From the NCBI RefSeq assembly GCF_014645235.1, contig NZ_BMLM01000001.1:248001-312000 (forward strand): a stretch of 64,000 nucleotides of DNA. The letters run 5' to 3'. The notes under the pieces are model-generated. The model worked only from the letters and a program-made list of their open reading frames with translations. It searched no databases and was not told the DNA's origin. Shown here piece after piece: positions 15,967 through 33,260 of this stretch. Position numbers and translations under genes: made by a program. The DNA is from Agrococcus terreus (GTDB lineage: Bacteria; Actinomycetota; Actinomycetes; Actinomycetales; Microbacteriaceae). The first letter of the stretch is position 1; each line of letters starts with the position of its first letter.

Positions 15967-16042
15967 ACGGCGGTCGCCGCTGGGGGCGGGCTCCACACTC
16001 CTCCTCGCACCCAGACGCTTGACGCGGCCCGAACGACGTTCT

Positions 16043-16054
16043 ACTGTCAACAGT
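16043..16054. promoter_or_regulatory. GntR-type operator, copy 1 (ACTGT-CA-ACAGT)
   Basis: A perfect inverted repeat ACTGTCAACAGT lies 44 bases before the ATG of the first DRL gene. The same palindrome occurs at 17483, 23728 and 26037. The GT..AC core fits FCD-type GntR regulators, and the adjacent GntR gene at 23004 is the obvious candidate protein. Confidence 0.8.
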
Positions 16055-16097: not shown

Positions 16098-17459
16098 TTG
16101 AACCTGTACACGCTGCTGCGACGACGGAACGCGGAGTCCGGCCCGATCCGGGTGGGCGTCATCGGCGCCGGCAAGTTCGCCTCGATGTTCCTGACGCAGG
16201 CGTCGGTCACCCCCGAGCTGCACGTCGTCGGCGTCGCCGACATCGACGTCCCGAAGGCGAGGGCGGCGCTCGAGCGCACCGGCTGGGCGCCCGAGCGGTT
16301 CGCCGCGACGAGCCTCGACGAGGCGGCCCGCACGGGACTCACGGCCGTCGTCGACGACTCCATGTCGCTCATCCGCCACGGCTCGGTCGAGGTCGTCCTC
16401 GAGGTCACGGGCAACCCGATCGTCGGCACCGACCACGCTGTCGCCGCGATCGACAACGGCAAGCACGTCGTGATGGTCAACGTCGAGGCCGACTGCATGG
16501 TCGGCCCGCTGCTGCAGCGCCGCGCCGAGGCCGCGGGCGTCGTCTACTCGATGGCGTACGGCGACCAGCCGGCCCTCATCTCGGAGCTCGTCGACTGGTG
16601 CCGCACCGTCGGCTTCGACGTCGTCGCGGCGGGCAAGGGCACGAAGTACCTGCCGGAGTACCACTACTCCACGCCCGACACCGTGTGGGACCACTACGGC
16701 TTCACCGACGAGCAGCTCTCGAGCGGCGACTTCAACCCCAAGATGTTCAACTCGTTCCTCGACGGCACGAAGTCGGCGATCGAGATGGCCGCGGTCGCCA
16801 ACGGCACGGGCCTGGAGCCGCAGCTCGACGGCCTCGCCTTCCCCGCCGCCGGCATCGGCGACCTCCCGCACGTGTTCCGCGAGCGCTCGGTGGGTGGCTC
16901 GCTCGACCGGCGCGGCACGGTCGAGATCGCATCGAGCCTGCACCGCGACGGCAGCGACGTGGAGCGGGACCTCCGCTGGGGCGTCTACGTCACGTTCGAG
17001 GCGAAGACCGACTACGCGGTGCAGTGCTTCGCGGAGTACGGGGTGAAGACCGACGAGACGGGCCGCTACGGCTCCCTCTTCCGGCCGTACCACATGATCG
17101 GCCTCGAGCTCGGGGTCTCGATCGCGAGCGCGGTGCTGCGCGGCGAGGCCACGGGCGCCCCGACGGGCTTCCGCGGCGACGTCGTCACCACCGCCAAGCG
17201 CGACCTGCGCGCGGGCGAGACGCTCGACGGCGAGGGCGGCTTCACCGTCTTCGGCAAGCTCCGCCCCGCCTCCTACTCGCTCGAGCAGGGCGTGCTGCCG
17301 CTCGGCCTCGCGCATGGCGCGAAGCTCATCCGCGACGTGCCGAAGGACCGCTCGGTGACCTGGGCGGACGTGGACGCCGACGAGACGCTGGCGGCCGTGC
17401 AGGTGCGCCGCGAGCTCGAGGCGGAGTTCCGCGCCGAGCACGGCATCACGATTCCGTAA
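16098..17459 (+). CDS. DXR-like (DRL) / SAF-domain NAD(P)H-dependent oxidoreductase, paralogue 1
   Basis: A 453-residue protein. The N-terminal Rossmann domain has GVIGAGKFASMF (about residues 20-31). The catalytic region contains NGKHVVMVNVEAD (near 122), VVYSMAYGDQPALI (near 151), VAAGKGTKYLPEYH (near 175) and DGTKSAIEMAAVAN (near 223). A C-terminal SAF-like segment (TAKRDLRAGETLDGEGGF) follows residue 360. This layout matches the DRL family, founded by a Brucella enzyme with deoxyxylulose-phosphate reductoisomerase activity (established family knowledge, compared from memory). Here a catabolic isomeroreductase or dehydrogenase acting on a small sugar acid is more likely, because the gene is adjacent to a TRAP transporter and preceded by a GntR operator. 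A strong ribosome site (AAAGGAG) precedes the ATG. The substrate is unknown. Confidence 0.82.
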   Translation: MNLYTLLRRRNAESGPIRVGVIGAGKFASMFLTQASVTPELHVVGVADIDVPKARAALERTGWAPERFAATSLDEAARTGLTAVVDDSMSLIRHGSVEVVLEVTGNPIVGTDHAVAAIDNGKHVVMVNVEADCMVGPLLQRRAEAAGVVYSMAYGDQPALISELVDWCRTVGFDVVAAGKGTKYLPEYHYSTPDTVWDHYGFTDEQLSSGDFNPKMFNSFLDGTKSAIEMAAVANGTGLEPQLDGLAFPAAGIGDLPHVFRERSVGGSLDRRGTVEIASSLHRDGSDVERDLRWGVYVTFEAKTDYAVQCFAEYGVKTDETGRYGSLFRPYHMIGLELGVSIASAVLRGEATGAPTGFRGDVVTTAKRDLRAGETLDGEGGFTVFGKLRPASYSLEQGVLPLGLAHGAKLIRDVPKDRSVTWADVDADETLAAVQVRRELEAEFRAEHGITIP

Positions 17460-17480
17460 CCTCTGCGACCCCTGCCGGTT

Positions 17481-17496
17481 CGACTGTTGACAGTCG
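17481..17496. promoter_or_regulatory. GntR-type operator, copy 2
   Basis: CGACTGTTGACAGTCG is a 16-base palindrome with a 2-base centre, the most extended copy in the window. It lies 65 bases before the dctQ start and 21 bases after the DRL1 stop, so the TRAP genes have their own regulated promoter. Confidence 0.82.
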
Positions 17497-17560
17497 ACTG
17501 CCGACCCTGATTCACTCGCGGAACGCGCGCCACGCAGGCGCATCGCAAAGGAGCGATTCC

Positions 17561-18112
17561 ATGAAGAGAGCTGTCAGCCGGGTGCTCTCCGGCCTCGACC
17601 TCGTGCTGCAGTGGGTGTGCATCGCCCTGCTCGCGCTGGTCATCGCGGGCGTCGTGTGGCAGGTGCTCGCGCGCTACGTCACGCGCGACTCCACCGCGTG
17701 GACGGCCGAGCTCGCCTCGTACTCGTTCGTCTGGCTCGCCATGCTCGCGATCGCCCTCGGCGTGCGCCGCGGCCGGCACATGGTGCTCGACATCTGGGAG
17801 TACGTGCCCTACCGCAAGTGGCTCTCGCGCCTCATCGACACCGTCGCGTTCGCGGTCGTCGGCGGCACGCTCGTGCTGCTGCTCTGGTTCGGGATCGTCG
17901 GGCTGGACGCGTCCTGGAGCCGCACCGCGCCGGGCCTCGGCATCTCGACCGGCTGGGTCTCGCTCGCCGTGCCCGTCGGCGCCGCCATCGCGCTCGTCTT
18001 CGCGGTCGAGGCGTGGTGGCTCAACTTCCAGGCCGAGGAGGGCGAGGACCCGCTCAGCGCCCCCCTCATCCACCAGCCGAAGGACCTCATCATCGTGAAG
18101 GGAGAGGTGTGA
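17561..18112 (+). CDS. TRAP transporter small permease subunit (DctQ family)
   Basis: A 183-residue protein with four membrane segments. The family-typical early stretch GVVWQVLARYVTRDSTAWTAELASYSFVWLAML spans about residues 28-60 (written here in order, not contiguous with a signal peptide). It pairs with DctM to form the membrane part of a sodium-driven tripartite ATP-independent periplasmic (TRAP) importer. The stop overlaps the start of dctM (GTGATG). A ribosome site AAAGGAG precedes the ATG. The start coincides with a GntR-controlled promoter. TRAP systems mainly import carboxylates and sugar acids, so an acid substrate is favoured over a neutral sugar. Confidence 0.92.
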   Translation: MKRAVSRVLSGLDLVLQWVCIALLALVIAGVVWQVLARYVTRDSTAWTAELASYSFVWLAMLAIALGVRRGRHMVLDIWEYVPYRKWLSRLIDTVAFAVVGGTLVLLLWFGIVGLDASWSRTAPGLGISTGWVSLAVPVGAAIALVFAVEAWWLNFQAEEGEDPLSAPLIHQPKDLIIVKGEV

Positions 18113-19437
18113 TGGGCCCCACCATCCTGTCCAGCTTCGGCGCAGCCATGCTGCTGCGCGTGCCCGTCGGCTTCGCGCTCGCGGCGGCATCGTTCATCGC
18201 CATCTGGTTCACGACCGACGCCCCGCTGTCGGTCGGCGCCCAGCGCCTCGTGGCCGGCATGACCCCGTTCCCGCTCCTCGCGATCCCGCTGTTCGTGCTC
18301 GCCGGCGCGATCATGAACGAGGGCGGCATGACGAAGCGGATGCTCGACCTGGCCGACTCGATCGTCGGCGGCATGCGGGCCGGCATCGCGCAGACCACCG
18401 TGCTCTCGTCGCTCTTCTTCGGCGGCATCTCGGGCTCGGCCGTCGCGTCGATCTCCAGCCTCGGCCGCATCCTCATCCCCGCGATGAAGGAGCGCAAGTA
18501 CAAGCCGGCCTACGCGTCGGCGGTCATGGCGGCCGCGCCCGTCGTCGACCCGATCATGCCGCCGTCGATCACGATGATCGTCTACGGCGTCGTGAGCGGC
18601 ACCTCGATCGGCGCGCTCTTCTTCGCCGGCATCGTGCCGGCGATCCTCTACGTCGCCATCCTGATGCTCGTCGTGCACTTCACCTCCAAGTGGCTCGGCT
18701 TCACCGACGAGGCCATCCAGGAGGCGCGGATGCTGAACCGCCCGATCGGCACCATCGCCAAGGAGGACCGCCCCGCGTTCCTGCCGTCGCTCTGGAAGGC
18801 GACGCCGGCGCTGCTGCTGCCGCTCGTCATCCTCGGCGGCATCCGCTTCGGCTGGTTCACCCCGACGGAGGCGGCCGCGGTCGCCGTGGTCTACGCGCTG
18901 CTCGTCGGCATCTTCGTCTACCGCGAGCTGAGCTGGAAGAAGTTCCTGTTCGGCATGGCCGACTCGGCGCTCATCGTGGGCCTCATCATGCTCGTGCTCG
19001 CCGCGGCGCAGATCTACTCGTGGGCGCTCACCCTCGGCCTCGTGCCGCAGACGGCCGCGGAGGCGATCTTCTCGATCACCGAGAACCCGGTGATCCTGCT
19101 GCTGCTCATCAACGCGGTGCTGCTCGTCGTGGGCATGTTCGTCGAGGCCAACGCCGCGCTCATCATCCTCACGCCGATCCTCTACCCGGTGGCGATCGAG
19201 GCCGGCATCGACCCCGTCCACCTCGGCATCATCATCGTCGTCAACCTGAGCATCGGCCTGCTCACGCCGCCCGTCGGCATCGGCCTCATGCTCGCCGCCG
19301 AGATCGGCAAGGTGTCGATGCTCCGGGCCGTCAAGGCGGTCCTGCCCTTCCTCATCGCGGGCCTCCTCTACCTGCTCCTCATCACGTTCGTGCCCGAGAT
19401 CTCGCTCTGGCTGCCGAACCTGATGATGCAGCAGTGA
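18112..19437 (+). CDS. TRAP transporter large permease subunit (DctM family)
   Basis: A 441-residue membrane protein with about 12 hydrophobic segments. Family motifs include LLAIPLFVLAGAIMN (near 55), FFGGISGSAVASISSLG (near 100), AAAPVVDPIMPPS (near 140) and TPPVGIGLMLAA (near 385). These match the DctM/SiaM transport subunit that carries substrate and sodium. It overlaps dctQ and is followed 44 bases later by the binding-protein gene. Length and motifs look intact. Transport is powered by sodium or proton gradients rather than ATP. Confidence 0.95.
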   Translation: MGPTILSSFGAAMLLRVPVGFALAAASFIAIWFTTDAPLSVGAQRLVAGMTPFPLLAIPLFVLAGAIMNEGGMTKRMLDLADSIVGGMRAGIAQTTVLSSLFFGGISGSAVASISSLGRILIPAMKERKYKPAYASAVMAAAPVVDPIMPPSITMIVYGVVSGTSIGALFFAGIVPAILYVAILMLVVHFTSKWLGFTDEAIQEARMLNRPIGTIAKEDRPAFLPSLWKATPALLLPLVILGGIRFGWFTPTEAAAVAVVYALLVGIFVYRELSWKKFLFGMADSALIVGLIMLVLAAAQIYSWALTLGLVPQTAAEAIFSITENPVILLLLINAVLLVVGMFVEANAALIILTPILYPVAIEAGIDPVHLGIIIVVNLSIGLLTPPVGIGLMLAAEIGKVSMLRAVKAVLPFLIAGLLYLLLITFVPEISLWLPNLMMQQ

Positions 19438-19481
19438 CCCCTCCCCACCCCACTCACCCCATCCATCCAGCAAGGAGCACC

Positions 19482-20498
19482 ATGCACCAGCGCACCATCC
19501 TCCGCAGCGTCGCGGTCGGAGCCATCGCCCTCGTCGCCCTCACCGGCTGCCGCCCCAGCGACGCCGCCCCCGCCGACTCCGCCGATGGCGGCAGCGGCAC
19601 CCTCAACCTCGTGCTCGGCCACGCCGGCAGCGACACGGACGCCCGCCAGGTCGCGGCGACCCGCTTCGCGGAGCTCGTCGAGGAGGCCTCGGACGGCGCG
19701 ATCACCGTCGAGGTCCACCCCGCGTCGACGCTCGGCACGTGGGAGGAGATGATCGAGGGCCTGCAGCTCGGCTCGACCGACATCGTCATCGAGAGCCTCC
19801 TCTCGCTCGAGTCGTACACCGACCTCGCCGGCGTCGAGACGGCGCCGTTCCTCTACGAGGACTACGACCAGTTCGAGGCGGTCTGGAGCGGCGAGCTCGG
19901 CACCGAGATCATCGACGCCGTGAGCGAGGCCTCGGGCTACGAGCCCATCGGCAACATGTACCGCGGCCCGCGCGTGCTCACGACGAGCGACCCCGTGGAG
20001 TCGATCGACGACGTGCAGGGCCTCACGATCCGCACGCCCAGCGCGCCGACGATGCTCGCCACCTGGGAGGCGATCGGCGCCCGCGCCGAGGCGCTGCCGT
20101 TCAACGAGGTCTACTCGGCGCTCGAGTCGGGCGTCATCGACGGCCAGGAGAACCCGGTCGACGCCATCCTCTTCAACTCCATCTACGAGGTGAACCCGTA
20201 CATCGCCGAGACGAACCACGTCTACGCGAACTACCACTTCATCCTGTGGGAGGAGGCGCTCGAGGGCCTCACCGAGGAGCAGCAGACCATCATCCGCGAC
20301 GCCGCGAACCAGGTCGGCGAGGAGTACACCGAGACGACCATCGAGGAGTCGGAGGAGTACCGCGCCGAGCTGGAGGAGGGCGGCGCCACCTTCACCGAGA
20401 TCTCCGACCGCCAGGCCTGGATCGACGCTACGCAGCCCGTGGTCGACGGCCTCCCCGACCAGGTGCAGACCTGGGTCGAGCAGATCCGCGCGATGTGA
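19482..20498 (+). CDS. TRAP transporter substrate-binding lipoprotein (DctP family)
   Basis: A 338-residue protein. A lipoprotein signal peptide ends in LTGC (Cys23), so the protein is anchored outside the membrane as usual in Gram-positives. The DctP fold is clear: AATRFAELVEEASDGAITVEVHP (in segments, near 59-81), then GLTIRTPSAPTM (near 183), which carries the conserved Arg that binds the substrate carboxylate, then LESGVIDGQENPV (near 212). The pI appears strongly acidic. It delivers an organic or sugar acid to DctQM. A hairpin follows the stop and may limit read-through into the second DRL gene. Confidence 0.93.
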   Translation: MHQRTILRSVAVGAIALVALTGCRPSDAAPADSADGGSGTLNLVLGHAGSDTDARQVAATRFAELVEEASDGAITVEVHPASTLGTWEEMIEGLQLGSTDIVIESLLSLESYTDLAGVETAPFLYEDYDQFEAVWSGELGTEIIDAVSEASGYEPIGNMYRGPRVLTTSDPVESIDDVQGLTIRTPSAPTMLATWEAIGARAEALPFNEVYSALESGVIDGQENPVDAILFNSIYEVNPYIAETNHVYANYHFILWEEALEGLTEEQQTIIRDAANQVGEEYTETTIEESEEYRAELEEGGATFTEISDRQAWIDATQPVVDGLPDQVQTWVEQIRAM

Positions 20499-20515
20499 TC
20501 CCGATCGCGTGAACC

Positions 20516-20545
20516 GGCGGGGCCCCGTGCTTCCGGGGCCTCGCC
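20516..20545 (+). terminator. Terminator or attenuator hairpin after dctP
   Basis: Arms 20516-20527 (GGCGGGGCCCCG) and 20534-20545 pair with one mismatch around a 6-base loop. It lies 18 bases after the dctP stop. No poly-U tract follows, so partial read-through into the second DRL gene is possible. Confidence 0.6.
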
Positions 20546-20654
20546 ACCCCCTCCAATCCATCCCGCCGCACCGAGCACCCAGGCGGTGCGGCCGCCCCGT
20601 CGCGCCCGCGACCGGCACCGACCGACCCCACGAACCCAGGAAGAAGAAGGATCC

Positions 20655-22010
20655 ATGAACCTCCACGAGCTGCTCCAGGAGCGCGAGGCGGCCGGTCGGC
20701 CCATCAGGGTCGGCCTGATCGGCTCGGGCCGCTTCGGCACCATGTACCTCTCGCAGGCGCGCAACATCCCCGGTGTGCGCGTCGCGGCGATCGCCGACAT
20801 CAACACCGCCCGCGCCCGCGAGTCGCTCGCCCGCGTCGGCTGGCCCGAGGACGCGATCGTCGACTCGGTCGACGACCTCGCGGAGGGCCGCACCGCCGTC
20901 ATCGCGGATGCGATGGACCTGTTCCGCACCGACATCGACGTGATCGTCGAGGCGACGGGCAATCCGATCGTCGGCATCACGCACGCGCTCGCCGCGATCG
21001 AGACCGGCAAGCACGTCATGATGGTGACCGTCGAGGCCGACGCCCTCGCCGGCCCTGCGCTCGCCAAGCGCGCCAAGGAGGCGGGCGTCGTCTACTCGAT
21101 GGCGTTCGGCGACCAGCCGGCCCTCATCTGGGAGCTCATCGACTGGGCCCGCACCTCCGGCTTCGACGTCGTCTGCGCCGGCAAGGGCGCCAAGTACCTG
21201 CCCGGCTACCACCAGATGAACCCCGACAACGTCTGGGACCACTGGGAGTTCTCGGACGAGCTGAAGCAGTCGGGGCAGCTGAACCCCTACATGCACACCT
21301 CGTTCCGCGACGGCACGAAGGCCGCGATCGAGATGGCGGCCGTGGCGAACGCGGCGGGCCTCGTGCCCGGCGACGCCGGCCTCACCTTCACGCCCGGCAA
21401 CCTCGAGGAGATCGCCACGGTCTGCCGGCCGGAGTCGGTCGGCGGCGTGCTGCCGCACGAGGGCACCGTCGACGTCATGTCGTCGTACACGCGCGAGGGC
21501 GACTGGATCCCCCACAACACGCAGGAGGGCGTCTTCGTCGTGGTGAAGGCCACGAACGAGTACGTCTCGAGCTGCTTCCAGGAGTACCCGTGGCACCCGG
21601 ACCCCACGGGCCAGTACGCGGCGCTCTACCGCCCGTACCACTACGTGGGCCTCGAGCTGAACGTCTCGATCGCCAACGCGGTGCTGCGCGGCGTCGCGAC
21701 CGGCACGGCCGTCGGCTTCACCGCCGACGTCGTCGCGACGGCGAAGACCGACCTGCAGGCGGGCGCGACGCTCGACGGCGAGGGCGGCTTCGCGGTCTAC
21801 GGCAAGCTCGTCTCGGCCCGCACCTCCGTGGCCGAGGGCTACCTGCCGGTCGCGCTCGCGCACCACGTGCCGCTCAAGCGCGACATCGCCCAGGGCGAGA
21901 GCGTCCGGTGGGACGACGTCGAGGTCGACGACTCGCTCGCGCAGGCGATCGAGCTGCGCCGCGAGACCGAGGCGCTCGCCGCGGCTGCGGCTGCGGCCGC
22001 AGCTCGGTGA
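20655..22010 (+). CDS. DXR-like (DRL) / SAF-domain NAD(P)H-dependent oxidoreductase, paralogue 2
   Basis: A 451-residue protein, a clear paralogue of the one at 16098. They share the Rossmann loop (GLIGSGRFGTMY here), EATGNPIVG, GKHVMMVTVEAD, VVYSMAFGDQPALI, CAGKGAKYLPGYH, DGTKAAIEMAAVAN and the SAF segment LQAGATLDGEGGF. The last 12 residues are nearly all Ala. The Rossmann loop and the region near 240-270 differ most, hinting at a different substrate or cofactor. It has a ribosome site (GAAGAAGG) and lies 156 bases after dctP. Its stop overlaps the GTG of a beta-hydroxyacid dehydrogenase. Family members include the Brucella DXR-like enzyme; the reaction here is not known. Confidence 0.82.
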   Translation: MNLHELLQEREAAGRPIRVGLIGSGRFGTMYLSQARNIPGVRVAAIADINTARARESLARVGWPEDAIVDSVDDLAEGRTAVIADAMDLFRTDIDVIVEATGNPIVGITHALAAIETGKHVMMVTVEADALAGPALAKRAKEAGVVYSMAFGDQPALIWELIDWARTSGFDVVCAGKGAKYLPGYHQMNPDNVWDHWEFSDELKQSGQLNPYMHTSFRDGTKAAIEMAAVANAAGLVPGDAGLTFTPGNLEEIATVCRPESVGGVLPHEGTVDVMSSYTREGDWIPHNTQEGVFVVVKATNEYVSSCFQEYPWHPDPTGQYAALYRPYHYVGLELNVSIANAVLRGVATGTAVGFTADVVATAKTDLQAGATLDGEGGFAVYGKLVSARTSVAEGYLPVALAHHVPLKRDIAQGESVRWDDVEVDDSLAQAIELRRETEALAAAAAAAAAR

Positions 22011-22912
22011 GCCAGGCCGCCAGCCAGGCCGATCGGCGGCCCGTCGCGCTGAGCCTCCTGGGGCTCGGCGCGATGGGCCTGCCGATGGCCCGTCGCCTCG
22101 CGGCCGCCGGCACGCTGACGGTGTGGAGCCGCTCGGCCGCCAAGCCCGAGGCGCTGCGGGCGGAGGTCGGGGTGCAGGTCGCCCCGACCCCCGCCGCCGC
22201 GGCGGGCGACGTCGTCGTCACCGTGCTGCCCGACCTCGCCGAGGTGCGCGAGGTGCTCGAGGGCGCGGACGGCCTGCTCGCCGGCTGGGCGGCGCGGCCT
22301 CCGGAGGCCGCGCGGCCGACGCTCGTCGTGTGCGGCACGGTGTCGCCCGTCGCGCTGCGGGCGCTCGCCGACGAGCTCGCGCCGACGGTCGACGTCGTCG
22401 ACGCGCCGCTCTCGGGCGGCGTGCTGGGCGCCGCCGAGGGCCGTCTCTCGGTGATGGTGGGCGGCAGCGAGGCGCAGGCGGCGCTCCTCGCCGAGGTGCT
22501 CGCGCCGTGCGCGAGCCGCGTGACCCGGATGGGTCCCACGGGCGCGGGCGCGACGGCGAAGCTCTGCAACCAGCTCGTCGTGGCCGAGACGATCACGGCG
22601 CTCTCGGAGGCGTTCGCGCTCGCGCGGGCGAGCGGCATCGACCCCGACGCGCTCGCCGACGCGCTCGGCGCCGGCCTCGCCGCGAGCGAGGTGCTGCGGC
22701 AGAAGCGGCACCACTGGATCGACGAGTCGTTCCAGCCGGGCGGCACGATCGACTACCAGGTGAAGGACCTCCGCTACGCGCGGGAGGCGGCTGCCGCATC
22801 CGGTGCGAGGCTGCCGGCGGGCGAGGCGGCGCTCGCCCTGTTCGAGGCGGCGTCGGCCGCGGGCGACGGCGGGCTCGACCACACGGGCGTCTACCGCACG
22901 ATCGCGGGCTGA
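22007..22912 (+). CDS. NAD(P)-dependent beta-hydroxyacid dehydrogenase (HIBADH family), paralogue 1
   Basis: A 301-residue protein. Features are GLGAMG (19-24) for NAD(P), the substrate loop LSGGV (SGG at 136-138) and catalytic Lys185 in GAGATAKLCNQ. The family covers 3-hydroxyisobutyrate, tartronate semialdehyde and 6-phosphogluconate-type reactions. GTG at 22007 overlaps the stop of the DRL2 gene, so the two enzymes are co-translated and probably catalyse neighbouring steps. Four members of this family are in the window, each in a different catabolic cluster. Confidence 0.9.
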   Translation: MSQAASQADRRPVALSLLGLGAMGLPMARRLAAAGTLTVWSRSAAKPEALRAEVGVQVAPTPAAAAGDVVVTVLPDLAEVREVLEGADGLLAGWAARPPEAARPTLVVCGTVSPVALRALADELAPTVDVVDAPLSGGVLGAAEGRLSVMVGGSEAQAALLAEVLAPCASRVTRMGPTGAGATAKLCNQLVVAETITALSEAFALARASGIDPDALADALGAGLAASEVLRQKRHHWIDESFQPGGTIDYQVKDLRYAREAAAASGARLPAGEAALALFEAASAAGDGGLDHTGVYRTIAG

Positions 22913-23003: not shown

Positions 23004-23684
23004 TCAGGCGTTCGAGAGCCGCGCCTCGATGAGGTCGCGCGCCGTCGCGCTGTGCTCGCGCAGCACGGTGCGCGCTCGCTCGGCGTCGCCCGACGCGATG
23101 GCGTCGAAGATCGGCTCGTGGCGGCTGGCCGACATGTTGAGCACCGCGGTCTCGCGGCCTGCGGCCATGATGGCGGCGCGCGCGAGGCCCGAGACGCGGC
23201 GCCACGATGCGACGAGGACCTCGTTGCCGCTCGCGGCGCAGATCGCCTCGTGGAAGGCGAGGTCGGCGTCCACCTGCTCGGGGATCGGCCCGTGCTCGCT
23301 CGCCTCGAGGCGGTCGAGGGCGGCGCGGAGGGCCGGCAGCGCGCTCTCGAGGTCGGGGCGGGCGCAGATCACCTCGGCCGCGTGCGACTCGAGGGCGAAG
23401 CGCACGTCGAAGATGTCGCGCACCTCCTCGAGCGTCACGACCCGCACCGAGAGCCTGCCGCGGGAGTCCTTGCTGAGCAGCCCCTCCTCCTCGAGGGCGC
23501 GGAGCGCCTCGCGGAGCGTGCCGCGCGAGACGCCGAGGGATGCGCTCAGCTCGGTCTCGGCGAGGTGCGTGCCGGGCGGCAGCTCGCCGCCGGCGACGGC
23601 GGCGCGCAGGCGGTCGAGGATCAGCTCCCGGCGGGTCACCCGCTCGATGGATCCGAGCGCCTGGAACTGGGCATCGGGTGACAT
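23004..23684 (-). CDS. GntR family regulator with FCD ligand domain; likely repressor of the 16-27 kb regulon
   Basis: A 226-residue protein. The N-terminal winged helix includes SLGVSRGTLREALRALEEEGLL (split over residues about 51-73). The C-terminal FCD domain has the Asp/His metal-ligand pattern: DADLAFHEAICAASGN near 132 and RHEPIFDAIASGD near 190. The ATG at 23684 is chosen because the longer ORF start at 23738 would place the operator copy at 23728 inside the gene. With this start the operator is 44 bases upstream, which fits autoregulation. FCD regulators bind small carboxylates and release DNA. The four shared palindromes make this the best candidate for their cognate protein. Confidence 0.88.
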   Translation of the reverse strand: MSPDAQFQALGSIERVTRRELILDRLRAAVAGGELPPGTHLAETELSASLGVSRGTLREALRALEEEGLLSKDSRGRLSVRVVTLEEVRDIFDVRFALESHAAEVICARPDLESALPALRAALDRLEASEHGPIPEQVDADLAFHEAICAASGNEVLVASWRRVSGLARAAIMAAGRETAVLNMSASRHEPIFDAIASGDAERARTVLREHSATARDLIEARLSNA

Positions 23685-23727
23685 GTCGCTCACGCTACCG
23701 GAGGGAACCTCGGGTGTACAGCGTCGA

Positions 23728-23739
23728 ACTGTTGACACT
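23728..23739. promoter_or_regulatory. GntR-type operator, copy 3 (in front of the regulator gene)
   Basis: ACTGTTGACACT matches the palindrome with one change in the right arm. It lies upstream of the minus-strand GntR gene, suggesting autoregulation. Confidence 0.7.
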
Positions 23740-23798: not shown

Positions 23799-24125
23799 TC
23801 AGCCGACGACGACGCCCTTGCGCGCATCCCCGACCGGGATCGGGTCGAGGCGGATGACCTCCACCGGGGAGGCCAGCAGCCCCTCGAGCTCGGCGTTGAG
23901 GTCGGCGACGGGCGCGCCGGCGCCGTGCTCGTCGAGCAGGGCGGCCGAGTCCCAGTGCTCGATCATCCAGATGACGCCGTCGGCGGCCTCCTGGATCGAG
24001 TACAGGTTGCAGCCCGCCTCCTCGTGCACGCGCGGGATCGCGCGCTCGAGCGCCGCGAGCACCTGCTCGCGGGCGCCCTCGGCGGGGCGGAAGACGGCGA
24101 TGACGACCAGCGGCGCGTCGGACAT
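23799..24125 (-). CDS. Antibiotic biosynthesis monooxygenase (ABM) domain protein, quinol monooxygenase-like
   Basis: A 108-residue single-domain protein of the dimeric alpha/beta-barrel (ferredoxin-like) superfamily. Its pattern is VVIAVFRPAEGAREQVLAAL, EAGCNLYSIQEA and IWMIEHWDSAALLDEHG, which matches putative quinol monooxygenases such as YgiN. Many members have no proven oxygenase activity and serve as isomerases or stress proteins. It is the last gene of a three-gene operon with an SDR and a TIM-barrel isomerase, and ends at a perfect terminator. A catabolic accessory role is inferred from that context. Confidence 0.82.
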   Translation of the reverse strand: MSDAPLVVIAVFRPAEGAREQVLAALERAIPRVHEEAGCNLYSIQEAADGVIWMIEHWDSAALLDEHGAGAPVADLNAELEGLLASPVEVIRLDPIPVGDARKGVVVG

Positions 24126-24287: not shown

Positions 24288-25070
24288 TCAGTGCAGGTGG
24301 CTCGCGCCGTTGATGTCGATGTTCGTGCCCTGCAGGTAGGCGGCGTCCTCGCTCGAGAGGAACGAGAACACGGCGGCGATCTCCTCGGTCGAGGCGACGC
24401 GGCCGAGGGGGATGTCGGCGGCGAGCTTCGCCTCCGACTCGGCGGTCGCGCCGACCCGGATGTTCGTGTCGACGGCGCCCGGCGTGACCGAGTTGACCGT
24501 GACGCCCGACGAGGCGATCTCGCGCGCGAGGGCCTTCGTGAAGCCGAGGATGGCGGCCTTGGCGGCCGAGTAGGGCACCTTGCCGAAGACGCCGCCGCCG
24601 CGCTGCGCGGACACCGACGACATGTTGACGATGCGGCCCCAGCCGGCCTCGAGCATCGCGGGCAGGAACGCCTTGGTGACGAGGTAGGTGCCGGTGGCGT
24701 TGACGGCCATGACCTTGTTCCAGAGGGCGAGGTCGGTCTCGAGGAACGGCACGGGCGAGGTGATGCCGGCGATGTTCGCGAGGCCGCCGACGACGGGCAG
24801 GCGGCCCGCCTCGACCTCGGCCTGCACGGCGGCCTGCGCGGCGGCGACGGCGTCCTCGTCGGCGACGTTCGCGGCGAAGCCGAAGTGCGGCACGCCGTGG
24901 CGCTCGCCGATCTCGGCGGCGACCTGCGCGGCGCGCTCGCCGTCGAGGTCGAGGATGACGACGGCCCAGCCGTCGCGTGCGTAGCGGTCGGCGACGGTCA
25001 TGCCGATGCCGCGCTCCGAGGTGGCGCCGGTGATGACGGCCGTCCGAATGGGCGCAGTGCGCTGGGTCAT
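24288..25070 (-). CDS. Short-chain dehydrogenase/reductase (SDR), catabolic cluster
   Basis: A 260-residue classical SDR. The cofactor loop is VITGATSERGIG (residues 12-23), slightly unusual in having SERGIG. An NIAGI motif is near 95; the catalytic Ser is in NMSSVSAQ and Tyr-Lys in VPYSAAKAA (about 159-167). The end carries the typical YLQGTNIDINGASHLH. It lies 26 bases after the TIM-barrel gene and upstream of the ABM gene. It probably oxidises a hydroxyl of the sugar or sugar acid handled by this regulon, but the substrate is not readable. Confidence 0.9.
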   Translation of the reverse strand: MTQRTAPIRTAVITGATSERGIGMTVADRYARDGWAVVILDLDGERAAQVAAEIGERHGVPHFGFAANVADEDAVAAAQAAVQAEVEAGRLPVVGGLANIAGITSPVPFLETDLALWNKVMAVNATGTYLVTKAFLPAMLEAGWGRIVNMSSVSAQRGGGVFGKVPYSAAKAAILGFTKALAREIASSGVTVNSVTPGAVDTNIRVGATAESEAKLAADIPLGRVASTEEIAAVFSFLSSEDAAYLQGTNIDINGASHLH

Positions 25071-25096: not shown

Positions 25097-25975
25097 TCAG
25101 CGGGCTGCGGAGGCAGCGAGCTCGGGGGCGATGCGGGCCGCGGCGTCGCGGATCGCGTCGATGCGGGCGGCGCGGGCGTCGTCGGACATCCCGCTCGTGG
25201 CGTCGTCGACGTAGGCGCGCGAGGGCAGCTCGAGCGCGTAGCCGCCGGAGAAGCCGACGGCCTCGAGGGCGGCGATCGCGGCGGCGAAGTCGACGTCGCC
25301 GCCGCCGATGGGCCGGCTGAAGTCGCCGAGCACGGCGTCGCGCAGGTGCACGTGGGCGATGCGGTCGCCCCAGCTGCGGATGACGTCCTGCAGGTCGTCG
25401 CCGGCGGCGGTGACGTGGGCGACGTCGAGGATGGGCCGCACGGGGCTGCCGGTGAGCAGGCGGTGGAGCGCCTCGGCGCGGGCGCGGTTCCAGCCGAAGC
25501 GCAGGAAGTGGAGCGACTCGACCCACAGCGCCACGCCGTGGTCGGCGGCGGCGTGGCCGGCCTCCCGCAGCCAGTCGCCGACGAGGCCGAGGTCCTCGGC
25601 CTCGGTGCGAATGGGCTCGTGCGCGAGCGCGCCGCAGGGGAGCACGAGCGCCTCGGCGCCGACCGCGGCGGTGAGGCGCAGGAGGCGCTCGAGGTGCGCG
25701 CGGCGCGCGAACGCGTCGGCGGTCGGGTCGTTGAGGTCGCCGATGTCGCCGTTCACGCTGCGCACGCGCAGGCCGCTCGCGCGGACGTCGGCCGCGACGG
25801 CCTGGATGGCCGCCTCGTCGAGGTCGAACGGGACGTGGTCGCAGACGCCGGGGAGGGCGCCGAGGTCGATCTCGGTGAAGCCGAGCGAGGCGATGGCCTC
25901 CAGCGCGGGCGCGAGCTCGAGGTGCTGGAACGAGATCGTGGAGCATCCGAGACGCTCGGGGAGCTGCTGCACCAT
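25097..25975 (-). CDS. TIM-barrel sugar isomerase/epimerase (AP endonuclease 2 / xylose isomerase-like superfamily)
   Basis: A 292-residue protein. The barrel strands and acidic ligands can be followed: IDLGALPG (strand 2), WVESLHFLR (Glu near 149), ILDVAHVT (Asp near 182), AHVHLRDA (His near 210) and YALELPS (Glu near 244). The pattern matches the sugar-phosphate isomerase/epimerase group that includes hydroxypyruvate isomerase, inosose dehydratase and D-apiose isomerase. It is the first gene of a minus-strand operon. The divergent MFS gene shares its control region, which holds operator copy 4. Isomerisation of the imported substrate is the likely job. Confidence 0.86.
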   Translation of the reverse strand: MVQQLPERLGCSTISFQHLELAPALEAIASLGFTEIDLGALPGVCDHVPFDLDEAAIQAVAADVRASGLRVRSVNGDIGDLNDPTADAFARRAHLERLLRLTAAVGAEALVLPCGALAHEPIRTEAEDLGLVGDWLREAGHAAADHGVALWVESLHFLRFGWNRARAEALHRLLTGSPVRPILDVAHVTAAGDDLQDVIRSWGDRIAHVHLRDAVLGDFSRPIGGGDVDFAAAIAALEAVGFSGGYALELPSRAYVDDATSGMSDDARAARIDAIRDAAARIAPELAASAAR

Positions 25976-26036: not shown

Positions 26037-26048
26037 ACGGTTGACAGT
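26037..26048. promoter_or_regulatory. GntR-type operator, copy 4 (between divergent isomerase and MFS genes)
   Basis: ACGGTTGACAGT matches ACTGT-N2-ACAGT with one change, and GTTGACAGTCAAC forms an overlapping palindrome. It lies 62 bases before the isomerase start and 109 bases before the MFS start, so it could control both directions. Confidence 0.72.
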
Positions 26049-26156
26049 CAACCAAGAACGTCGCAGAATGATCCCGCTGACGAAGGAGTCTCCCTTCGCC
26101 GGCATGGGATGCACAGCGGCGCGAAGCAGCGGCCGCCGGCAGAGAAGGGACACCCC

Positions 26157-27500
26157 ATGAGCAACGTCGCTCTCGCGACCCGAGGGCCGGTCAACGGCAC
26201 CCCGGAGGCGAAGAAGGTCGCGGTCGGATCCGGCGTCGGCGCCGTCATCGAGACCTACGACTTCATCGGCTACGGCACGGCCGCCGCGCTGTACTTCGGC
26301 ACCGTCTTCTACCCGAGCGAGGATCCGCTGGTCGGCACCCTGCTCTCGTTCGCCACCCTCGGCGTCGGCTTCCTCGCCCGCCCCCTCGGCGGCGTCATCG
26401 GCGGCCACCTCGGCGACAAGGTGGGCCGCAAGCCCGTGCTCGTCGCCTCGCTCATCGCGATGGGCCTCGCGACCTTCGTCATCGGCCTCCTGCCGACCTA
26501 CGCGCAGGTGGGCATCCTCGCCCCGATCCTGCTCGTCACCGTCCGCATCATCCAGGGCATCGCCTTCGGCGCGGAGTGGGGCGGCGCGATCCTCATGAGC
26601 TACGAGCACGCCCCGTGGCGGCGCAAGGGCGCCTTCACCGGCATCGTGCAGGCCGGCTTCCCCGTGGGCCTGCTGCTCGCCAACCTCACGTTCCTCGTCT
26701 CGGTGCACCTGCCCGGCGACTGGGCGTGGCGCGTGCCGTTCCTCGCGAGCATCGTGCTCGTCGTCGTCGGCCTCATCATCCGCGCCAAGGTGCCGGAGTC
26801 GCCCGTCTTCGAGGACGTCAAGGCCAAGGACGAGGTCATCAAGTCGCCCGTCGTCGAGGTCATCAAGAAGGACTGGCGCAACATCCTGCGCGGCATCGGC
26901 CTGCGCATCGCGGAGACCGCCGGCTACGCCGTCTCGGTCACGTACATGATCAGCTACATCAACACGAACGGCCTCGCGGAGCCCTCGCAGACCCTCACGG
27001 CCCTCTGCATCGGCGCGGGCGTCGGCGTCTTCGCCACCTGGGGCTGGGCGGCGCTCACCGACAAGGTCGGCCGCAAGCCGCTCTACGTCTGGGTCACCGC
27101 CTTCGCCGTGCTGTTCGCCATCCCGATGTTCCTGCTCGTGAACACCGGCTCGCTGCTGCTCATCATCGCCACGATCGTCATCGCCTACGCCGTCTGCCAG
27201 AACGCCCTCGCCGGCGCGCAGGGCGCCTGGTTCCCCGAGCTCTTCAACGCCAACACGCGATCCTCGGGCGCCTCGCTGGCCTACCAGTTCTCGGCGATCG
27301 TCTCGGGCTTCACGCCCTTCCTCACCACGCTGCTCTTCATCAGCTTCGGCTGGGTCGGCCCGGCGCTGCTCTTCGCCCTCTACGCGGCCATCGGCCTCGT
27401 GTCGGCGCTCCTCACCCGCGAGACGTGGGGGCCGGCCGAGCGCGCGCAGACCGAGATCGAGGCGGAGCGCCAGCTGGCCCGCGACGCCGAGCGCGTCTGA
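26157..27500 (+). CDS. MFS transporter, metabolite:proton symporter (MHS) family, 1
   Basis: A 447-residue protein with 12 predicted membrane segments. The MHS/ShiA-like hallmarks are present: ETYDFIGYGTAAALYFG near the first helix, the loop 2-3 motif GHLGDKVGRKPVL (about 83-95) and AFGAEWGGAILM near 140. Relatives import organic acids such as shikimate, alpha-ketoglutarate or benzoate. A ribosome site (AGAAGGGA) precedes the ATG. The operator at 26037 ties it to the regulon, giving this pathway a second uptake system beside the TRAP transporter. Confidence 0.92.
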   Translation: MSNVALATRGPVNGTPEAKKVAVGSGVGAVIETYDFIGYGTAAALYFGTVFYPSEDPLVGTLLSFATLGVGFLARPLGGVIGGHLGDKVGRKPVLVASLIAMGLATFVIGLLPTYAQVGILAPILLVTVRIIQGIAFGAEWGGAILMSYEHAPWRRKGAFTGIVQAGFPVGLLLANLTFLVSVHLPGDWAWRVPFLASIVLVVVGLIIRAKVPESPVFEDVKAKDEVIKSPVVEVIKKDWRNILRGIGLRIAETAGYAVSVTYMISYINTNGLAEPSQTLTALCIGAGVGVFATWGWAALTDKVGRKPLYVWVTAFAVLFAIPMFLLVNTGSLLLIIATIVIAYAVCQNALAGAQGAWFPELFNANTRSSGASLAYQFSAIVSGFTPFLTTLLFISFGWVGPALLFALYAAIGLVSALLTRETWGPAERAQTEIEAERQLARDAERV

Positions 27501-27611: not shown

Positions 27612-28262
27612 ATGCTGCCGCCGCTTGCCGAGCTGGGCAGGCTGAGCCTGCGCGAGCAGGCGCTCGCCGCCCTCCGCCGCGCGATCTCGTCCGGCTCGAT
27701 CCAGCCGGGCACCCGGATGGTCGAGGCCGACCTCTCGACGCAGCTCGGCATCAGCCGCGGCACGCTCCGCGAGGCCATGCGCCAGCTGCAGCAGGACGGC
27801 CTGCTCGAGGCGGATGCGCGGGGCCGCCTCAGCGTGCGGCAGATCGGGCACGCCGAGATCGTCGACATCTTCCTCGTGCGCGGCGCGCTCGAGGCGCTCG
27901 CGGTGCGCACCATCTGCGGCTTCGGCGACCGCGAGCCCGCGCTCGCGGCGGTGCGCACGGCGCTCGAGGGCATGTCGGCGCCCACGCAGGAGCAGATCGC
28001 CGAGCGCATCGAGGCCGACCTCGACTTCCATCGCACGCTCGTGCGCGCCTCCGGCAACGGCACGCTGCTGCACCAGTGGACGCAGCTCGAGGGCTCGATC
28101 CGCATGTCGATCATGTTCGCGGGCGCCGAGCGGGCGCTGCGCAACATGGACGTCGACCGCCACCGCGAGATCGTCGACGCCATCGAGGCCGGCGACGGCG
28201 ACGAGGCGGCCCGGGTGCTGCGCGAGCACATGCACGAGGCGGCGACCACGCTCATCGGCTGA
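27612..28262 (+). CDS. GntR family regulator with FCD domain, second
   Basis: A 216-residue protein. The winged-helix recognition region is LGISRGTLREAMRQL; the FCD domain follows with EADLDFHRTLVRASGNG (about 133-149) and a late DRHREIVDAIEAGDGD, the metal/ligand-binding pattern. A short leader contains CCCCGTAGGATCGGGG, which may be a hairpin. Its terminator is shared with the transketolase operon that converges on it. Which genes it controls is not clear: neither the ACTGT nor the ATTGGTC palindrome lies in front of it. It may be a second sensor for the flanking MFS or transketolase genes. Confidence 0.85.
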   Translation: MLPPLAELGRLSLREQALAALRRAISSGSIQPGTRMVEADLSTQLGISRGTLREAMRQLQQDGLLEADARGRLSVRQIGHAEIVDIFLVRGALEALAVRTICGFGDREPALAAVRTALEGMSAPTQEQIAERIEADLDFHRTLVRASGNGTLLHQWTQLEGSIRMSIMFAGAERALRNMDVDRHREIVDAIEAGDGDEAARVLREHMHEAATTLIG

Positions 28263-28343: not shown

Positions 28344-29339
28344 TCAGCCGAGCTCGGCGAGCACCGTCTGGACGATCCGGTCCTTCGAGATGCCGTAGCG
28401 CTCGTGGAGCGTCGGCAGGGCGCCGGCGTCGAGGAACTCGTCCGGCAGGCCGATCGGCACGATGCGCTTCGCGACGCCCTTCCGGGCCGCCGCCTCCGCC
28501 ACCGCCGAGAACAGGCCGCCGACGACGGTGTGGTTCTCGAGCGTGACCGCGAGGCGCGGGGTGTCGAGCTCGCGCAGCACCGTCTCGCTGTCGAACGGCT
28601 TGATGGTGGGGGAGTGCACGACCGCCACGTCGACCTTGTGGGCCGCGAGGGCCTCCGCCGCCTGCAGCGCCCGCATCGTCATGAGGCCCGACGAGATGAG
28701 CACGACGTCGGCGCCGCCGCGCAGCACCTTCGCCTTGCCGAGCTCGAACGAGTAGTCGTACTCGTCGAGCACGAGCGGCACCTTGCCGCGGAGGAGCCGC
28801 AGGTAGGTGGGGCCCTCGTGGGCGGCGAGCTGCGGCACCGACTGCTCGATGTCGAGCGCGTCGCACGGGTCGACGATCGTGAGGTTCGGCATGCCGCGGA
28901 AGATCGCCATGTCCTCCGTCGCCTGGTGGCTCGGCCCGTAGCCGGTCGTGAGGCCCGGGAGGCCGCCGACGACGTTGACGTTGAGGTTCGGCTCGGCGAT
29001 GTCGAGGCAGATGAAGTCGTACGCGCGGCGCGCGGCGAAGACCGAGTAGGTCGACGCGAACGGCACGAGGCCCGTCTCTGCCATGCCTGCGGAGGCGCCG
29101 AAGAGCAGCTGCTCGCTCATGCCCATCTGGAAGAAGCGCTCGGGGTGCTGCTTCGCGAAGATGTGCATGTCGGTGTACTTGCCGAGGTCGGCGGTGAGGC
29201 CGACGACGCGCTGGTCGGTCTCGGCGAGCGCCGCGAGGGCGGTGCCGAAGGGCGCCGTCTGCGTGCGCTGGTCGGCGTCGGCGATCGACGCGATCATCGC
29301 GCTCGTGCTGGCGCGCTTCGCGGGTGCTGCGGTGCTCAT
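28344..29339 (-). CDS. Transketolase, C-terminal half (pyrimidine and C domains) as a separate subunit
   Basis: A 331-residue protein equivalent to the pyrimidine-binding and C-terminal domains of transketolase. The conserved Glu that activates thiamine diphosphate is Glu76 in MGMSEQLL. FASTYSVFAARRAYDFI and GPSHQATEDM (about 136-143) are family motifs. The ATG overlaps the stop of the N-terminal-half gene, so an alpha2beta2 enzyme is expected. Split transketolases often serve side pathways rather than central metabolism; one precedent is the apulose-4-phosphate transketolase AptA/AptB of D-apiose catabolism (established knowledge). The assignment to that reaction is only a hypothesis, since no apulose kinase is visible. 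Confidence 0.92.
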   Translation of the reverse strand: MSTAAPAKRASTSAMIASIADADQRTQTAPFGTALAALAETDQRVVGLTADLGKYTDMHIFAKQHPERFFQMGMSEQLLFGASAGMAETGLVPFASTYSVFAARRAYDFICLDIAEPNLNVNVVGGLPGLTTGYGPSHQATEDMAIFRGMPNLTIVDPCDALDIEQSVPQLAAHEGPTYLRLLRGKVPLVLDEYDYSFELGKAKVLRGGADVVLISSGLMTMRALQAAEALAAHKVDVAVVHSPTIKPFDSETVLRELDTPRLAVTLENHTVVGGLFSAVAEAAARKGVAKRIVPIGLPDEFLDAGALPTLHERYGISKDRIVQTVLAELG

Positions 29340-30235
29340 CGTGCGTCCTCCTTGCCTGCGGTGAGCTGGTCGCGGCAGATCTGCCACTCCTGCTCCTCGA
29401 TGCGCATGAAGTGCGCCTTCTCGCGGTCCTCGAGCAGCGGCACGCCGCGGCCCACCTTCGTATCGCAGATGATCACCTGCGGCTGTCCGTCGGCCGCCCG
29501 GCCGGCCTCCAGCTCGTCGAACGCGTCCAGCAGGGCGCCCGCGTCGTTGCCGTCGACGCGGATGGCCTTCCAGCCGAACGCGCGCCACTTCTCCTCGACC
29601 GGCTCGATCCGCAGCACGTCGGCCGTGGGGCCGTCGGCCTGCAGCGCGTTCATGTCGACGAGCGCCGTCAGGTTGCCGAGCCGGTGGTGGGCGGCGCCCA
29701 TGGCGGCCTCCCACGTCGAGCCCTCGTCGAGCTCGCCGTCCGACAGGAAGTTGATGACGCGCTGCTCGCCGCGGCCCTGCAGGCGCAGGCCCAGCGCCAT
29801 GCCCACCGCGACCGTGAGGCCGTGGCCGAGCGAGCCTCCGGAGATCTCCATGCCGGGCGTGTACGAGGCCATGCCGGACATCGGCAGGCGCGAGTCGTCG
29901 CCGGCGTAGGTCAGCAGCTCCTCGACGGGCACGATGCCCGCCTCGGCGATCGCCGCGTAGAAGCCGATGGCGTAGTGGCCGGTCGAGAGCAGGAAGCGGT
30001 CGCGGTCGTCCCAGTGCGGGTCGGCGGCGTCGTAGCGCAGCTGGTCGGTGTACACGGCCGAGAGCATGTCGGCGGCGCCGAGCGCCTGGCCGACGTAGCC
30101 CTGGCCCTGCACCTCGCCCATGTCGAGCGCGTGGTGGCGCGCCCGGTAGGCGGCCTCCTCGACGGCGCGGATGCGCTCGTCGCGGCTGCGGCCGTCCTTG
30201 CCCGCCACGCGGGCGCCGGTCTGGGTGATCGTCAT
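29336..30235 (-). CDS. Transketolase, N-terminal half (thiamine diphosphate/Mg-binding domain) as a separate subunit
   Basis: A 299-residue protein equivalent to the first domain of transketolase. The thiamine diphosphate motif reads SDGELDEGSTWEAA (165-178) with the closing Asn196, so Ser replaces the first Gly of GDG. STGH at 84-87 and GSLGHGL near 134 supply phosphate contacts. It is coupled by 4-base overlaps both to the upstream MFS gene and to the downstream C-terminal-half gene. The two subunits transfer a two-carbon ketol group between sugar phosphates in the cytoplasm. Substrates depend on the pathway, which is not known. Confidence 0.92.
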   Translation of the reverse strand: MTITQTGARVAGKDGRSRDERIRAVEEAAYRARHHALDMGEVQGQGYVGQALGAADMLSAVYTDQLRYDAADPHWDDRDRFLLSTGHYAIGFYAAIAEAGIVPVEELLTYAGDDSRLPMSGMASYTPGMEISGGSLGHGLTVAVGMALGLRLQGRGEQRVINFLSDGELDEGSTWEAAMGAAHHRLGNLTALVDMNALQADGPTADVLRIEPVEEKWRAFGWKAIRVDGNDAGALLDAFDELEAGRAADGQPQVIICDTKVGRGVPLLEDREKAHFMRIEEQEWQICRDQLTAGKEDAR

Positions 30236-31560: not shown

Positions 31561-31650
31561 GGTTCCTCCTCGAACCTGGGTGATGCTGCGCGCCGCTCGG
31601 CGCGCGGAGGGGGTCTGGGTCGGCGCCGGCGAGGTCGGCGCCGACGCGGG

Positions 31651-32511: not shown

Positions 32512-33260
32512 GCGGTGGTCTCCTTGCTGGTGGGGGCCGCGGCCGCGGCGGGCGTCTCGGCGCGCTCCGGATCGTGCGTGATGAGCGAGTGCACCTCGAA
32601 GTGGCGGCGGATGGCGGCGCGCGCGGCGTCGGGGTCGTTCGCCGCGATCGCCTCGACGATCGGGTAGTGGATCGTGTCGGTCTCGACGGGGCCGTCGTGG
32701 TCGGCGCCGACGGCGGCGAGGGCGGCGGCGCGGCGCTCGTGCATCGCGTCCTGCAGCACGTGCGCGAGGCCCGCGTGGATCATCGTGAAGACCGGGTTGT
32801 CGAGGATGCGGAAGAGCTCGGCGTGGAAGGCGAGGTCGGCCTCGCTCGCGGCCTCGTGCTCGCCGGCGGCGGTGCTCGCGACCATCGCGTCGACGTGGGC
32901 GCGGAGGCGCTGGGCGTCGGCGGCGGTGCCGCGGCGCGCGGCCTGCACGGTGACGACGGTCTCGAGCATCTCGCGGGCCTCGGCGACGTGGGCGGCGTCG
33001 AGGAAGCCGAGCGCGCCCATCGTGGTGAAGTACGTGCGGATGAAGTCGGGGCCGGGCGCCTGCAGGTACGTGCCGTGGCCCTGGCGGCGCGAGAGCACGC
33101 CGATCGACTCGAGGCGCGAGAGCCGCTCGCGGAGCGTGGCGCGGCTGACGTCGAGGCGGATGCAGAGCTCGCGCTCGGGGGCGAGGCGGCGGCTGCCGTC
33201 GGGCTCGGGCGTGGAGAGGTCGACCAGCTGCAGGGCGAGGGCCTCGAGCGACTCGTGCAT
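32508..33260 (-). CDS. GntR family regulator with FCD domain, heads the transketolase operon
   Basis: A 250-residue regulator. The recognition helix lies in LDVSRATLRERLSRLESIGVL and is followed by a wing SRRQGHGTYLQ. The FCD domain has EADLAFHAELFRILDNP near 143. The ATG at 33260 is preferred over the longer frame to 33347 because the extension is Arg-rich and would cover the first operator. With this start, palindromes ATTGGTC-N-GACCAAT lie 38 and 89 bases upstream, as expected for autorepression. A TGGTC..GACCA site is typical of FadR-group GntR proteins. It controls its own operon down to the transketolase genes. Confidence 0.88.
   Translation of the reverse strand: MHESLEALALQLVDLSTPEPDGSRRLAPERELCIRLDVSRATLRERLSRLESIGVLSRRQGHGTYLQAPGPDFIRTYFTTMGALGFLDAAHVAEAREMLETVVTVQAARRGTAADAQRLRAHVDAMVASTAAGEHEAASEADLAFHAELFRILDNPVFTMIHAGLAHVLQDAMHERRAAALAAVGADHDGPVETDTIHYPIVEAIAANDPDAARAAIRRHFEVHSLITHDPERAETPAAAAAPTSKETTA

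Follow-up and report, generated by a model that had tools for sequence, protein, structure and literature searches.

A 64,000-nucleotide stretch of the 2.83 Mb genome of Agrococcus terreus (contig NZ_BMLM01000001.1, positions 248,001 to 312,000; hereafter the window) encodes two DXR-like (DRL) oxidoreductases, DRL1 and DRL2, that flank the TRAP transporter genes DctQ, DctM and DctP. Judging from the sequence evidence, we somewhat favor the view that both proteins are NAD-dependent aldonate-type oxidoreductases of the DLO2 kind in a GntR-linked, TRAP-fed catabolic regulon. An earlier note on this DNA envisaged a rearranging or oxidizing step. Given that DRL3, a distant paralog encoded in the same genome, should yield 3-oxo-tetronate, that residue 229 (Brucella abortus numbering) is changed, and that DRL2 pairs with a beta-hydroxyacid dehydrogenase (bHAD) and, in 8 of 27 DRL2-type genes, with gluconokinase, the oxidizing step looks better supported and the rearranging one less so. 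The gene set is best called a variant of sugar-acid catabolism, not a wholly new kind of system. Within the literature searched, the earlier statement that no pathway with this gene set has been described stands, and no role is assigned to this enzyme group, most subscription journals lying outside the search.

DRL1 and DRL2 are 54% identical over 442 aligned columns, and both combine a Rossmann domain with the Pfam DRL_cat domain (E 6.2e-57 and 8.5e-54, respectively) and SAF. The AlphaFold model of DRL2 (mean pLDDT 93.0) matches the B. abortus DRL structure 3upy over 422 residues with a root-mean-square deviation of 1.8 and a Z score of 48, the next matches being canonical DXR and homoserine dehydrogenase (Z 17-19); the sequence identity of the pair to B. 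abortus DRL is about 30%. The second strand of the Rossmann fold ends in Asp (Asp48) in both proteins, and phmmer alignments place Ala followed by Arg-Arg opposite this residue in B. abortus DRL. An Asp at the end of this strand is the usual sign of NAD, and its presence suggests NAD use by DRL1 and DRL2. The gene order DRL1-DctQ-DctM-DctP-DRL2-bHAD is found again in related genomes, so the locus is no artifact of open reading frame (ORF) prediction. Domains, identity and recurring gene order thus bear out the description, given in the earlier note, of two paralogous DRL/SAF oxidoreductases flanking a TRAP transporter.

The available sections of the paper that divided the family into DXR-II, DLO1 and DLO2 report that position 229 is a conserved Thr in DXR-II and Pro, Ser or Ala in DLO2, that this residue helps bind fosmidomycin in DXR-II, that Gly121 is highly conserved in DXR-II, and that four DLO1/DLO2 members did not complement a dxr mutant (Carretero-Paulet 2013, PMC3847144). 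In the window, position 229 is Ser in DRL1 and Ala in DRL2. Across Microbacteriaceae the column is uniform within each type, with Ser in all 34 DRL1-type sequences and Ala in all 28 of the DRL2 type, and it is Thr in 7 DXR-II-like sequences (these residue counts include the window and one genome twice, L046 being a duplicate of L165). Position 250, His in DXR-II, is Ala in DRL1 and Thr in DRL2, with His in 3 of the 34 DRL1-type sequences; K191, D225, K228 and E232 are kept in both proteins, and the K193 column, which hinges on gap placement, was not used. DRL1 and DRL2 agree with the published DLO2 residue at 229, and it is by that residue only that we would assign them to the published clade. 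A plasmid copy from Cupriavidus necator N-1, an organism listed under DLO2 in the same sections (PMC3847144), and possibly the listed gene itself, shares a 96-row group with the pair in the 103-row tree described below. The window pair shares with DLO2 the Rossmann, DRL_cat and SAF domains, Ser or Ala at 229 and the lack of His at 250; those sections give no function or gene context for DLO2, whereas the window pair is tied to TRAP, bHAD and ABM-domain genes.

With DXR-II as represented by B. abortus DRL (3upl, 3upy), the pair shares the fold, Gly121, K191, D225, K228 and E232, and differs from it at Thr229, His250 and the strand-2 Asp. Given that a canonical dxr is present elsewhere in the genome (two PF02670 matches in one frame, inside a 361-residue ORF) and that residue 229 is changed, DRL1 and DRL2 are unlikely to serve the methylerythritol phosphate (MEP) pathway, in agreement with the catabolic role proposed earlier together with a check for just this gene. 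That one of the two is nevertheless the MEP-pathway enzyme of this genome (DXR-II), as the fold, the identity to B. abortus DRL and the retained Gly121 might suggest, seems to us far-fetched: besides the canonical dxr, both Thr229 and His250 are absent from the two proteins and the cluster is TRAP-linked.

The regulon proposed in the earlier note gains support from shared operator-like sites, and the carboxylate-type importer from the presence of DctQ, DctM and DctP, which together make up a TRAP transporter. The window has three copies of ACTGTTGAC, one each upstream of DRL1, of DctQ and of the GntR gene, against 0.06 occurrences expected, a post hoc comparison in that the motif was chosen after shared 10-mers had been seen. 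Related short sites were found in 11 of 13 related loci, scanned without a shuffled control (none was found in L166 and L179), and 21 of the 33 matches precede DctQ, DRL1 or the TIM-barrel gene. Another motif, RTTGACAGTC with one mismatch, was rejected as weak (6 matches against a mean of 2.78, with 6 reached in 3 of 100 shuffles). The top PDB match of the window DctP is 4pc9/4pcd, reported to bind D-mannonate and L-galactonate; no paper in the literature searched names these entries, and the match is only a lead to the DctP ligand. A proteobacterial DctP of the module better matches other PDB entries.

Conserved neighbors in Microbacteriaceae were counted in every one of the 24 genomes that have a DRL2-type copy and in 12 of the 21 remaining matched genomes, with families named from single representatives and the duplicate L046 omitted (further duplicate genomes are possible); Louvain clustering and a first connected-component clustering split or missed neighbor families and were not used for the counts. 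Among 27 DRL2-type genes, bHAD accompanies 26, ABM 25, TRAP and LacI 14 each, an ABC importer, a NAD-epimerase-family protein and an Amidohydro_2 lactonase-like protein 12 each, gluconokinase 8 and a DUF1537 kinase one. The 33 DRL1-type genes are found with GntR (21), a DUF1537 kinase (18) and MFS (17). The SDR is present at 11 of 13 DRL1-type genes from loci with both types versus 3 of 20 from DRL1-only loci, and the TIM-barrel protein at 9 of 13 versus 0 of 20. For the DRL2 loci, the best models are the D-allose binding protein for the ABC binding protein (180 bits, cut-off 335), RbsR for the LacI protein and L-fuconolactonase for the lactonase-like protein (both below cut-off), and the gluconokinase scores above its subfamily cut-off; the bHAD of the window is 53% identical to that of an ABC-type DRL2 locus. 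For the representative DRL1-type kinase, the top model is D-threonate kinase (93.6 bits, cut-off 450). Neighbor family M22 is a GlpX fructose-1,6-bisphosphatase and not a fructose-1,6-bisphosphate aldolase, and in L043, the one kinase-bearing locus scanned for it, the gene directly after the kinase is class II fructose-1,6-bisphosphate-aldolase-like. Genes for DLO, ABM, an oxidoreductase, TRAP and gluconokinase occur together on two plasmids of Rhizobiales, whose DLO is not sister to DRL2.

What the data show directly is the sequence and fold of the proteins, the order of the genes, the operator-like sites and the conserved neighbors; the reaction of each enzyme we infer, as follows. DRL1 and DRL2 would each oxidize a secondary hydroxyl of an imported sugar acid, perhaps at C3. 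DRL2 would pass the keto acid to the adjoining bHAD, which would reduce it to the epimeric aldonate in an oxidize-then-reduce pair; where a gluconokinase is present, the epimer would be gluconate, converted to 6-phosphogluconate by analogy with the L-idonate route of Escherichia coli. L-idonate catabolism by IdnD, IdnO and IdnK follows a logic of oxidation, reduction and gluconokinase like that proposed for the DRL2 module, with different enzyme families. In relatives, a DUF1537-type kinase would receive the oxo acid that DRL1 makes. As gluconokinase and this kinase are both missing from the window cluster, enzymes encoded elsewhere in the genome would have to perform these steps, unless the steps themselves are different in this organism. 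Alternatively, the DUF1537 kinase might act first and DRL1 might oxidize the phospho-acid, followed by loss of CO2, for which the D-threonate kinase/PdxA2 route is the model. The best score of the DRL1-type kinase and the phosphorylated substrate of DXR-II are compatible with such an order, but we regard it as quite improbable given the absence of this kinase from the window cluster and the prevalence among DRL2-type genes of gluconokinase over the single DUF1537 kinase.

The oxidative reading draws on DRL3, which is 29% identical to DRL1 and lies beside a permease, OtnK, OtnC and a YgbI-like regulator (L006:7537-13209). OtnK, OtnC and a DeoR-type regulator accompany it in all 15 stretches (L006 and L217-L230; its own genome, two of the genus and twelve others). 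OtnK scores above the 3-oxo-tetronate kinase cut-off, and OtnC below its own, in 3 of 3 scanned cassettes; a permease was recognized in L006, L217, L229 and L230 (DASS-like) and in L226 (GntP-like). No bHAD or TIM-barrel reference match was found in the 15 stretches at E 1e-12, that is, no LtnD- or OtnI-like match in a search that used no OtnI query. The available part of PMC12540250 describes two tetronate routes, one of four steps (LtnD, OtnI, OtnK, OtnC) and one of three, in which the decarboxylase carries an F_bP_aldolase domain. Given that the DRL3 cassettes carry an Aldolase_II-like decarboxylase, as in the four-step route, DRL3 probably delivers 3-oxo-tetronate directly and apparently takes the place of LtnD and OtnI in front of OtnK. 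The logic of a dehydrogenase followed by a DUF1537 kinase is common to this route and to the DRL1- and DRL3-type loci; the window's DRL cluster, by contrast, has no OtnK or OtnC. The three PF07005 matches of the genome lie in the DRL3 locus, just past the right end of the window and at C1:130526. At that right edge (window 63522-64000; L235:8023-14918), OtnC and OtnK occur with another TRAP system and a 3-hydroxyacyl-CoA-dehydrogenase-family protein, a set that is possibly parallel to the DRL cluster; the DctP of this TRAP system and the DctP encoded between DRL1 and DRL2 are 48% identical.

Several points weigh against the oxidative reading. The substrate and activity of DRL1 and DRL2 are predictions, and the specificity for C3 is borrowed from DRL3, a protein of low identity with a different active site (Ser192, Glu193, Ala228, Asp229). 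DXR-II-like sequences also have Asp or Glu at the end of strand 2, so this residue cannot tell oxidation from rearrangement. Gly121, a DXR-II trait, is present in both proteins and counts against the DLO2 label, although it does not discriminate here because it is also found in 82 of 94 other DLO sequences and is replaced by Ala in 3 DXR-II-like sequences of Agrococcus. The window cluster has no DUF1537 kinase, gluconokinase, lactonase or ABC importer, the single gluconokinase match of the genome lies about 630 kb away from it, the tree does not place the DRL2 clade as sister to the proteobacterial TRAP/gluconokinase clade, and other DLO relatives have quite different neighbors. Finally, skeletal rearrangement is the reaction of the sole member of the fold that has been characterized.

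This last point leads to a different chemistry, in which DRL1 and DRL2 are oxidoisomerases that oxidize a branched sugar acid and rearrange it to a linear keto acid, in the sense opposite to DXR. Hamamelonate is 2-carboxyarabinitol, a plant-leaf acid, and a DXR-type rearrangement of a branched acid of this kind would give 2-keto-gluconate, which in the case of DRL2 would be reduced to gluconate by bHAD; such a rearrangement would suit the neighbors of DRL2 equally well as oxidation. The match to 3upy, the conservation of K191, D225, K228, E232 and Gly121 in both proteins, and the DRL2/ABC module, with its ribose/allose-like importer followed by the NAD-epimerase-family protein, the lactonase-like protein and partly gluconokinase, all speak for this chemistry. 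Nevertheless, we consider it unlikely, given that the fosmidomycin-binding residue 229 is changed, that plain dehydrogenation accounts for the same gene sets with less chemistry, and that no paper on hamamelonate catabolism was among the literature searched (searches on hamamelose and methylerythritol likewise returned nothing on point among the matches listed). ApnO, the D-apionate oxidoisomerase, combines oxidation with rearrangement of a branched acid and, compared by description only, resembles this alternative; it is not among the PDB sequence matches or fold-comparison results, which cover solved structures only and exclude nothing. The broader proposal that DLO2 proteins in general are branched-sugar-acid oxidoisomerases, with DRL2 leading from hamamelonate through 2-keto-gluconate and gluconate to 6-phosphogluconate, and that DXR-II is catabolic at its root, is doubtful to a still greater degree; if true, DXR-II would be a catabolic enzyme (methylerythritol phosphate to 1-deoxy-D-xylulose 5-phosphate, DXP) borrowed by some bacteria for isoprenoids.

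In a 103-row tree, obtained by a quick method with SH-aLRT support only (support of 85-89 at several deep forks, some forks left unresolved, and a warning about long branches), DRL1 groups with copies from Leucobacter, Schumannella, Glaciibacter and Saccharopolyspora, and DRL2 falls into a separate four-row clade; a recent tandem duplication was accordingly rejected. The treatment of the pair as one gene set in the earlier note is not supported in that form, in that each type has its own clade and usual neighbors and the two co-occur in some Microbacteriaceae only. A match at E 1e-80 is present in 45 of 398 Microbacteriaceae genomes, 24 of these 45 having a copy of the DRL2 type, and a relative at E 1e-30 in 12 of 24 Agrococcus genomes. 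Where both types are present (14 genomes), they lie less than 20 kb apart in 12; given that 7 of these 12 are Agrococcus with a single arrangement, the other 5 having other gene orders, independent cases of the pairing are few. In one Agrococcus genome (G019:C1:762804-764151) the DRL2 ortholog is in two overlapping pieces in different frames, either a broken gene or a misassembly.

Relatives of the pair occur in Actinomycetes, Proteobacteria, Chloroflexi, Planctomycetes and haloarchaea; the 80 named loci rank highest among at least 492 relatives and are skewed towards DRL1 (L006 and L123 were added to the DLO table by hand, and L047 and L201 yielded no DLO entry in gene calling). A PhyH-family dioxygenase gene lies upstream of the DLO gene in 17 of 98 sources, among proteobacterial relatives (L060, L064, L066, L073, L080, L082, L087, L089, L092, L095, L097, L099, L102, L105, L108, L117, L120); some relatives adjoin IlvD and SMP30, and others have no informative neighbors. 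Given these differences, a single substrate for the whole DLO group is unlikely. The PhyH and other dissimilar neighborhoods could also mean that the substrate of DRL1 and DRL2 is another carboxylate, such as a branched or aromatic-derived hydroxy acid, which only the neighbors make look like a sugar acid, but this appears improbable because in Microbacteriaceae the neighbors of both types include kinases, a lactonase-like protein, gluconokinase and importers of sugars. A Deinococcus DRL-type gene (L123:5980-7287) sits amid the nucleotide-sugar genes rfbF, rfbC and SDR and glycosyltransferases, and is possibly involved in branched-sugar synthesis.

The features of the cluster are listed in Table 1. 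DRL1 starts with TTG, at the same residue as its homologs; the listed start of DRL2 is the homologous one, a longer ORF start lying upstream at 20586, and the bHAD start overlaps the DRL2 stop by 4 bases. DctQ has no NCBIfam match.

Table 1. Genes and sites of the DRL cluster, with positions in the window
Feature	Position	Strand	Basis or remark
Operator-like site, 5' of DRL1	16042..16054	.	ACTGTTGAC on minus strand at 16046-16054
DRL1, putative DLO2-type oxidoreductase (Rossmann + DRL_cat + SAF)	16098..17459	+	Pfam domains, residue alignment
Palindromic operator-like site, 5' of DctQ	17480..17497	.	
DctQ, TRAP small permease (start approximate)	17561..18112	+	Homology to annotated small permeases and position
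DctM, TRAP large permease	18109..19437	+	Pfam/NCBIfam
DctP, TRAP solute-binding protein	19482..20498	+	Pfam/NCBIfam
DRL2, putative DLO2-type oxidoreductase	20655..22010	+	Pfam domains, residue alignment, AlphaFold model
bHAD	22007..22912	+	Top model tartronate semialdehyde reductase, 195.5 bits, below cut-off 340.75
GntR/FCD-type regulator	23004..23693	-	Profile search
Operator-like site, 5' of GntR gene	23727..23736	.	
ABM-domain small protein	23799..24125	-	Pfam
SDR dehydrogenase	24288..25070	-	Profile searches
AP_endonuc_2 TIM-barrel protein	25097..25975	-	Profile searches
Palindrome GGTTGACAGTCAACC between TIM-barrel and MFS genes, variant of operator-like site	26039..26053	.	
MFS metabolite/H+ symporter	26157..27500	+	Below subfamily cut-off
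Second GntR/FCD regulator	27612..28262	+	Profile search

Elsewhere in the window, positions 28344-33260 hold a transketolase split into two genes, MFS, an L-threonate-dehydrogenase-like bHAD (below cut-off) and GntR, with the perfect palindrome ATTGGTC-N-GACCAAT present twice, at 33298 and at 33349, upstream of this GntR gene. Another GntR-linked cluster (46744-52763) contains two bHAD genes, one SDR and several small unidentified proteins.

The DXR-II-like relatives form loci of their own. Those of Agrococcus (L231-L233) have Thr229 and His250 but Ala121, and adjoin GutM, glucitol-type phosphotransferase system (PTS) subunits, pyruvate-dehydrogenase-type E1 alpha, E1 beta and E2, and a SorC/LsrR-type regulator. 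Among 17 DXR-II-like stretches, with the DXR-II residues checked in 7, 10 have PTS subunits and 7 have both E1 alpha and E1 beta; the combination with PTS, GutM, E1 and E2 is seen in L231, L232, L233, L253 and L126 and partly in L244, L246, L247, L252 and L122. These loci possibly represent catabolism of 2-C-methylerythritol, which would enter through the PTS as MEP, be oxidized to DXP by the reverse DXR reaction and undergo acetoin-like acyloin cleavage to acetyl-CoA and glyceraldehyde 3-phosphate. Counting against this pathway, 7 of the 17 (L245-L251) have an ispD-like stretch (28-34% identity) close to the gene, as fits a role in biosynthesis or salvage, and 5 of these 7 gave no PTS match.

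When the DXR-II-like oxidoreductases received their name in 2013, no function was given to them; two of their clades are now tied to defined sugar-acid gene sets. These ties, together with that of DRL3 to 3-oxo-tetronate, make the activity of DLO proteins directly testable. Demonstration of such activity would reveal how a reductoisomerase fold shifts between catabolism and isoprenoid synthesis, and, the enzyme group being widespread, tests of DRL1 and DRL2 could give access to a new part of sugar-acid metabolism in bacteria.

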